This document shows positions 58,599 through 60,275 of a stretch of DNA of 64,000 bases, one piece after another. This stretch comes from Dendrolimus kikuchii (lineage: Eukaryota; Arthropoda; Insecta; Lepidoptera; Lasiocampidae): the NCBI GenBank assembly GCA_019925095.2, contig CM034406.1, forward strand, positions 12,558,388-12,622,387, written 5' to 3'. Each line of letters begins with the position of its first letter. Position 1 is the stretch's first letter. Position numbers and translations under genes: made by a program. The notes beneath the pieces are model-generated. The model worked only from the letters and a program-made list of their open reading frames with translations. It was not told where the DNA came from and did not search any database.

Positions 58599-58712
58599 AC
58601 AAATGTTCCCACAAATGAAGTTTCGCGTCTCTGGTTTAGACGCGAAGGCCAAATACATCCTCCTGTTGGACATCGTCGCGGCCGACGACTACAGATATAA
58701 GTTCCACAACAG
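58599..58712 (+). CDS. bi: T-box exon, version A (Tbx2/3, optomotor-blind type)
   Basis: Internal coding exon for part of the T-box DNA-binding domain of a Tbx2/3 (optomotor-blind/bifid) nuclear transcription factor. It follows the acceptor ...ctatttgcag and ends AACAG before gtagac. The first base completes an Arg codon (phase 2), and the exon then encodes [30 protein letters not shown] and YRYKFHN. The last two bases AG join the first C of the exon at 62841 to make Ser, giving [10 protein letters not shown] as in Tbx2 proteins. It is 114 nt, the same length and phase as the exon at 60162, with which it shares 30 of 37 whole residues. Odd points: Gln replaces the second Arg of the family GRRMFP motif, and the pyrimidine tract is weak. 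Family assignment is secure from the KAKYI and DIVAADD motifs; the symbol rests on insect orthology. Confidence 0.93.
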
Positions 58713-60161
58713 GTAGACGAAATACATTGCGTACCGGAACACAAACACCATCGATCTCTACACTTTAACCTGTCCATGTATAACAACCGAGAATTTAGCG
58801 TCGCGCCTGACGCCAGATTGTCGGTCCATCATTAATAGATATCACCGTTGATTGGAGATGCTCATTCCGTTTTAACTGCGTTCCGTTACACGCTTGTTTT
58901 CATTTAGCTTGTGATTCTCCCCACGCAATGCACTAGTTCCCATCACTAAAACAATTATAAAGCGTTCCTTAATTGCGTCTAAACAATTTGTACGAAACAC
59001 GCTTAATTTAAGGGCAACGACATCGAACGACAAGTGAACACCGCGTGGAATCGTCAGCCGATTAAGAATTCAGCTCGCATCCGATGGGTAATATCATTAA
59101 AATATCTTTGTCTCAAAAGCCGCAGCGGTAATGTAAAAAGCTCCGCCGACACCAGAGGTGAGAAATACCAACGCGACTCATACTGTTCTACCGAATTAAC
59201 CTAAATTAGAATTAAACTCGAGGCGATAATCTTGTCGCGTGATCTCGTTCGAGAGAATAGTAAACAAGTCTTCCGTGTTCGGTTGTCGTCAGCCAGCATC
59301 CCTGGGGGACTTTTATCGGTGGTAATCGTCGTATTTGATCTTGTACATTGTTTGATTCGTGATGACACGGGCAGATAACATTCGTTCCTTTATTCCGCTT
59401 GTCGATTATCAAAACCGCCGACGCGCAGGTTTGGCAATATCGAGATGTGGCCGATAAACTTCGATTTAATATCCGTTAATTAATACGACCCGAGCATTCC
59501 GGTCGAAAATGCGACTGTGACTCAGCCGTAAACCGATACAAACGCCGACAAAGGCTCCTCCATCTAGCGCCGTTAATATGGTAATTAATTATTACAAATC
59601 ATCCGTACATAAATTACTTTCCAATTATTCGTTCTTAACTCGATCATGTCTTTTTTGGTCCAGCATTTCGAAACCATGTTCCGGAGCGCGTTCGTGTTAA
59701 ACGTTCTTGTAACATGACATTTGATCACGTACATTGATCACGATGTATCGCGAAGTCAAATCGCACAATGGACATTCGCATTGCCGTTTTTGGTAGTCTG
59801 TGGCAGAAACATGGAGTTTTTATGTGTTGCAAATATTTAATCACACCTCTTCGGTAACGTTGATTAGACTCGAAGATGCTCAAAACACCAAATCTGACCG
59901 AGATGTCGTGATTTATTTTTTTGTATTCAGTCGTTAAACTCCATTCTCGGTTACTAGTTCAACCGGGCGTATAAAATAAATAAAAATCTAATTAATGCGA
60001 TGTAAGATCACAAGCTAAAACGATCGGTTTCTCGGTAGCGCACGGAACGGACGTAAAAAGTGAAACTAGTCCAACGGCATGTCTCGACAATCGACGTGAT
60101 GTCAAATCGTTGTCGCAAAGAACTAGTCCCAATCCATGTTTTTCTCTCGTGTTGCTTGCAG
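58713..60161 (+). other. Intron between the two alternative T-box exons
   Basis: This 1449-bp GT...AG intron holds no transposon that I recognise, unlike nearly everything upstream of 58.3 kb, and is visibly richer in CG-containing motifs. It includes TCACACCT at 59841, which is the reverse complement of the T-box core site AGGTGTGA; an 8-mer like this can occur by chance. The small reading frames inside it (for example 59212-59412) show no recognisable domain. Intronic elements that enforce choice between versions A and B would be expected here or in the flanking introns. Confidence 0.75.
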
Positions 60162-60275
60162 ACGCATGTTTCCTGCCTACAAAGTTCGCGTTTCTGGTCT
60201 TGATAAAAAAGCAAAGTACATTTTGCTAATGGACATCGTAGCTGCCGACGATTGCAGATACAAATTCCACAACAG
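60162..60275 (+). CDS. bi: T-box exon, version B (Tbx2/3, optomotor-blind type)
   Basis: Second version of the same T-box segment, 1449 bp downstream of version A. It is preceded by a good acceptor (tttttctctcgtgttgcttgcag) and ends AACAG before gtataa. It starts in the same phase and encodes [30 protein letters not shown] and CRYKFHN, again joining in frame to SRWMVAGK of the exon at 62841. At 114 nt it is exactly as long as version A. With an upstream Gly-Arg it restores the usual GRRMFP motif, and it resembles the vertebrate TBX2/TBX3 form ([20 protein letters not shown] with [10 protein letters not shown]) more closely than A does. A and B can replace each other without shifting frame; joining both would repeat this part of the domain. 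Reading: one of two alternative exons. Confidence 0.94.

Follow-up and report, generated by a model that had tools for sequence, protein, structure and literature searches.

Exons at the optomotor-blind locus

The window, a 64,000-nt stretch of the Dendrolimus kikuchii genome (C20:12558388-12622387), holds part of a gene that, by its encoded sequence, is a member of the Tbx2/3 (optomotor-blind/bifid) subfamily of T-box factors. Exons A, B and 3, the intron between A and B and the splice sites of A and B lie on the forward strand. Two adjoining exons, A (58599..58712) and B (60162..60275), are each 114 nt long, run from a split arginine codon to a split serine codon, and encode alternative versions of the same 38-codon T-box slice. 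Exon A carries the Omb-type version, which appears to be derived, and exon B an ancestral-type version. They are separated by an intron of 1,449 nt (58713..60161) and followed by a shared downstream T-box exon, exon 3 (62841..62994), which reads RWMVAGK...ISDKHGF and ends at the donor GTGAGT. Both A and B have AG immediately before them and GT immediately after. Pyrimidines make up 59% of 17 nt in the acceptor of exon A (58578..58598), 76% of 17 nt in that of exon B (60141..60161), and 65% in that of exon 3; the donors of A (GTAGAC, 58713..58718) and B (GTATAA, 60276..60281) both depart from consensus at +4 to +6. For either exon the codon split at entry is AG|A (Arg), and the codon split at exit is AG|C (Ser), completed by exon 3 at 62841. 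The initial annotation had described two stop-free 114-nt exons of the same phase, about 1.45 kb apart and in frame with position 62841, and the borders, the intron length and the open joined frames confirm that description.

Exon 1 lies upstream of the window in the same assembly (C20:12534976-12535295). It starts with ATG, reads as Bombyx P0112 as far as the junction, and ends ...AAGAGTGGCAG|GTCAGT (...KSG-AG|GTCAGT), in the phase that A and B require. The exons are spaced 81,690 nt (exon 1 to A), 1,449 nt (A to B), 2,565 nt (B to exon 3) and 100,523 nt (exon 3 to exon 4). Joined as 1-A-3-4-5 or 1-B-3-4-5, with exon 5 cut at 75 nt, they give open reads of 270 residues from ATG through the T-box. 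The best solved-structure match of the piece comprising B and exon 3 was TBX3 (2.4e-55, versus 1.5e-36 for TBX5), which, together with the T-box reading of the joined exons, bears out the earlier assignment to Tbx2/3. A T-box profile search of the whole assembly (705 Mb, 49 contigs; 25 candidates scored) revealed a single A/B pair among the 19 matches listed, at the omb locus. The order along C20 is one upstream exon, the A/B pair, exon 3 and one downstream exon, and the remaining T-box matches lie elsewhere. Positions 1-58598 of the window fall within intron 1 of omb (81.7 kb), where the proteins tried matched no further omb exon. An open frame in this intron (44362-44727) has a weak, below-cut-off match to the transposase domain PF01359 (20.7 bits) and is probably a mobile-element remnant.

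Exons A and B have 81 of their 114 bases in common. Over the 37 whole codons, 13 match exactly, 17 carry only silent differences and 7 specify a different residue, leaving 30 of 37 residues the same. A codon-based estimate gave a dN of 0.177 with dS saturated, which indicates an old duplication of a protein stretch under strong constraint. As a control for chance likeness, 38 stop-free 114-nt AG..GT frames from both strands of the window were scored against A: the self-score was 192, B scored 153, and the next best frame scored -17. No third copy was seen in the window. A and B are thus adjoining, homologous and alike in length and phase, and their splice sites are usable; these are the features by which mutually exclusive pairs are recognized.

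Distribution and age of the two versions

Three overlapping protein searches were pooled. The first (best 120 of 1616) had exon 3 as effectively its sole query and serves as an A/B-neutral sample; the second (best 120 of 259) was queried with A and favours A, and A+B proteins most of all; the third (79 of 79) was queried with B and admits proteins of about 0.55 to 1.75 times 1,465 residues. Together they list 261 different proteins, of which 238 carry a species name (177 species, no myriapod among them), and each was classed by its version of the 37-residue slice. Homologues had been clustered at 90% identity, so that A and B isoforms of one species may share one representative, and the absence of B, as in Diptera and crustaceans, consequently weighs less than its presence. 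The classes were 145 A only, 86 B only, 26 A+B, 1 B+B and 3 neither. One fish TBX2 model (P0001) contains two B-type slices, the second TBX5-like; our guess is that this model probably fuses neighbouring genes.

Window A recurs letter for letter in 128 of the 261 proteins listed, from 91 named species and 4 proteins without a name; by group these are 50 from Diptera, 37 from Lepidoptera, 35 from Hymenoptera, one each from a mayfly and a grasshopper, and the 4 unnamed. Window B recurs identically in 27 of the 261, from 13 species, all Lepidoptera. In the exon 3 search (best 120 of 1616), Lepidoptera yielded 20 A, 17 B and 14 A+B proteins, Coleoptera 10 A, 7 B and 2 A+B, Hemiptera 7 A and 20 B, and Diptera 10 A out of 10. 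Gene models of many insects therefore substantiate the expectation that both exons would be found in other insect omb relatives. Twenty-three proteins came from contigs lacking a species name. Twelve of these (7 A, 5 B; contigs of about 1.9-4.6 kb) continue without a break through the joins of exon 1, A or B, exon 3 and exon 4, as would be expected of spliced RNA, while the other 11 fell outside the join pattern used; two of the five B proteins (P0006 and P0055) have mollusc-like slices, which leaves three as evidence of B in insects.

The human TBX3 slice is of B type, as are those of 6/6 chelicerates, 8/9 molluscs (one unclassed), 13/13 flatworms and 1/1 rotifer among the proteins listed. 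In this set, a single residue places flatworm P0252-P0254 closer to B, and three mite proteins begin inside the slice. Among the same proteins, A is present in insects, Artemia, Daphnia, Tigriopus and the Collembola Folsomia and Orchesella, and the presence of both exons within one species is shown for insects. Residues Q5, M6 and F8 are found in 171/171 A copies and 0/114 B copies. In a tree of 63 different slices, a branch with support of 98/91, recovered in 100% of 200 bootstrap trees, sets A apart as one group, with the qualification that the tree has 37 columns and a midpoint root and that the A/B labels rest on the same residues. B would accordingly represent the ancestral bilaterian type and A the outcome of a single tandem duplication of the exon, no later than the base of Pancrustacea; on these sequences, a B ancestor with A arising once, at or before the pancrustacean ancestor, is the simplest reading. 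That the switch would prove old if both versions recurred across insects had been anticipated, and A in several orders, its standing as one group and insect models with both exons agree with that.

Diptera have, so far as listed, A only (55/55 proteins, 42 species), and even the search queried with B returned A nonetheless from 23/23 dipteran proteins. B has probably been lost in this order, 'probably' being the apt word because 90% clusters can hide near-identical isoforms. Hymenoptera gave no B-only model among the 35 proteins listed, in searches biased towards A or towards long proteins. The B slice of ants and a wasp (P0123, P0125-P0129) has drifted and their A slice equals that of the window; B has drifted in Schistocerca gregaria too. 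The lack of B in the listed Diptera, along with drift in Hymenoptera and S. gregaria, indicates that B can apparently be lost.

Choice between the exons

We favour, with a probability of roughly 0.85, the reading that the Tbx2/3 T-box contains an ancient pair of tandem exons, A and B, of which one or the other is normally included, giving two Omb proteins, B being ancestral and A of single origin and the sole form yet seen in Diptera. The exons would be duplicates of the exon for the second part of the T-box DNA-binding domain. Pre-mRNA would normally take up either A or B, the resulting Omb proteins would differ by seven residues close to the end of the domain that contacts DNA, the choice would be regulated by cell type or stage, and exclusion, where it holds, would be an active process.

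Mutually exclusive splicing had been proposed in the initial annotation, and part of this proposal stands. A-only and B-only models occur separately in nine of the listed insect species (five aphids, Daktulosphaira, Nymphalis, Helicoverpa and Achroia), so that each exon is included without the other in gene models, as distinct from reads, of named insects. Strict exclusion is not established, since A and B stand in tandem in 26/261 proteins listed and 114 nt keeps the frame. These proteins come from 19 species of Lepidoptera, Hymenoptera, Coleoptera and Hemiptera, always have A before B with the two 38 residues apart, and may reflect leaky exclusion or annotation artefacts. An alternative, which we judge improbable though serious enough to be weighed, treats A and B as cassette exons under separate control and takes the A+B product, whose T-box holds a 38-residue tandem repeat, for a normal protein of some tissues. 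The four orders and invariant order of the A+B models fit this account, as do the 16/120 A+B proteins in the exon 3 search (best 120 of 1616) and the open A+B frame. Against it, named insect proteins listed (199, from 141 species) comprise 128 A only and 45 B only versus 26 A+B, with sampling uneven between A and B; the A query puts A+B proteins on top because they match twice, which inflates their count; and several A+B entries are called hypothetical or unnamed products. The join that skips both exons, KSG[S/R]RW, was found in 0/261 proteins listed, and a repeated core stretch would be expected to upset a conserved fold. Mean AlphaFold pLDDT was 40.1 for the A+B protein P0112 and 39.1 for the A-only control P0033, values too low to bear on how A+B folds.

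Several familiar means of enforcing exclusion do not fit this locus. The A-B intron of 1,449 nt is too long for steric exclusion, and every border is GT-AG, which speaks against a U2/U12 mismatch. At 38 codons, double inclusion stays in frame; the A+B join (308 residues) and the skip-both join (232 residues) are likewise open, so the reading frame enforces nothing and frame-based exclusion also falls. With steric, spliceosome-type and frame-based exclusion unfit, exclusion, where it holds, would come from regulators or RNA pairing. Inverted repeats were present as 15 pairs, the longest with arms of 26 nt at 73%, a tally made without a shuffle or conservation control, and an Rfam search over 57000-64000 returned nothing at gathering score. 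By a consensus count, the donors of A, B and exon 3 each score 6/9, a value that about 16% of all the window's GT sites attain. Weak donors as a sign of regulation are therefore unsupported, as the exon 3 donor has the same 6/9 and donor weakness alone proves nothing. The A-B intron itself has 42% G+C and a CpG observed/expected ratio of 1.74, versus 28-29% G+C on either side, and 8% of equally long stretches of the window reach that G+C content. We suggest that this intron may carry the control elements.

Protein differences, retention of exon B and known systems

Version A had been thought to resemble the fly Omb form, and it is in fact letter-identical to that slice of OMB_DROME (P0214). 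The further claim that one gene would have two DNA-binding domains was too strong, since what varies is one 38-codon slice of a single T-box, by seven residues. Passages of PMC4625211 give Omb R355K, TBX3 G129A/R130S and TBX2 R122E/R123E as DNA-binding mutants, and R355K and R122E/R123E are cited there for loss of binding. The A slice of Omb P0214 begins at Q356, directly after R355, so that exon choice sets the residue following R355: Gln in A and Arg in B. By alignment, this position would be equivalent to TBX2 R123. The junction arginine, R355, coded across the exon 1 join, is common to both forms. Fly Omb, with Gln at the next position, is a working protein, and the change thus does not abolish function. 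A difference between A and B in DNA binding is plausible, and the two forms would be distinguished by the DNA they bind or by their choice of partners.

The T-box also varies at a second place, immediately after ISDKHGF (62995-63003; L010, C20:12721905-12721917), where two potential acceptors of exon 4 are spaced 12 nt from each other. Lepidopteran models exist both with and without CVTQ at the start of exon 4. VST follows ISDKHGF in 47/261 proteins listed, including fly Omb and hymenopterans, and fits read-through past the exon 3 donor. We take this point to be the site of the vertebrate TBX3+2a insertion.

A and B might instead both be used and be functionally equivalent, the duplication having been kept for splicing or expression control, a reading we hold to be unlikely. 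The 30 shared residues accord with equivalence, and so do the similar scores of the Nymphalis forms against the T-box profile PF00907 (259.8 bits for A, 263.6 for B). The three A-specific residues fixed in every A copy and in no B copy point the other way and are difficult to account for unless selection acted on the A protein itself. Very much less probable is that one exon is dead or dying. The missing B of Diptera and its drift in Hymenoptera and S. gregaria could be cited for decay, but B here is undamaged and keeps its AG/GT borders, Lepidoptera have B-only models, and the same B sequence recurs in the 27 lepidopteran proteins listed. A decaying duplicate in related species, which the initial annotation named as an outcome that would speak against it, is contradicted for this gene by identical B in 13 lepidopteran species and identical A in 91 named species among those listed. 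An assembly artefact, or a misplaced fragment of another T-box gene in the intron, had nothing found in its favour and is so improbable as to be negligible, given that exons 1, A, B, 3 and 4 follow one another along a single contig and that the A+B models of 19 named species imply the same A-then-B order.

The preferred reading of a normally alternative exon pair can be carried one step further. Tentatively, and with somewhat less than an even chance of being right, the pair would have served since the pancrustacean ancestor as a splicing switch between two DNA-binding specificities in one Tbx2/3 gene, Diptera having been left without the ancestral half and the ancestral form remaining active in moths, beetles and bugs. 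If this is true, all knowledge of Drosophila Omb concerns the derived form only. The patterning of wings, eyes, abdomen and brain depends in large part on Omb/Tbx2/3. Should a single gene yield two T-boxes of which the fly retains just the derived one, fly-based work on target sites, mutant phenotypes and evolutionary comparisons may miss a function kept elsewhere in insects. The pair is also a natural experiment, in which seven residues of a very conserved DNA-binding domain are swapped by splicing and have long been retained.

A and B isoforms are already present as gene models in public databases. No description of the A/B exons was found in the literature searched by title, abstract opening and some passages, many subscription papers lying outside that scope. 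In the fly, omb is an X-chromosome gene. A WebScipio study that predicted mutually exclusive exons by homology (PMC3228551) relies on the same signature of equal length, phase, homology and adjoining position, and in its main text, which deals with fly X-chromosome genes, the names bifid, optomotor, omb and CG3578 do not occur. Passages of PMC11649972, PMC3228551, PMC4363906, PMC4625211, PMC13276312, PMC4327956 and PMC4872147 make no mention of the A/B exons.

Among known systems, Drosophila optomotor-blind/bifid is nearest, belonging to the same gene family and sharing the A slice, and it differs in that Diptera have the A form only among the 55 proteins listed. To our knowledge, vertebrate TBX2 and TBX3 have only one version of the slice; they possess the same T-box (1h6f), and their slice is of B type. 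In the TBX3+2a isoform, extra residues enter the T-box at another place. In the forkhead factor FOXP1, a switch between exons 18 and 18b alters the forkhead domain; that case is alike in that exon choice changes a DNA-binding domain and unlike in its protein family and its vertebrate setting. Set beside these systems, exons A and B form a pair of alternative exons that is remarkable for where it lies and how old it is.
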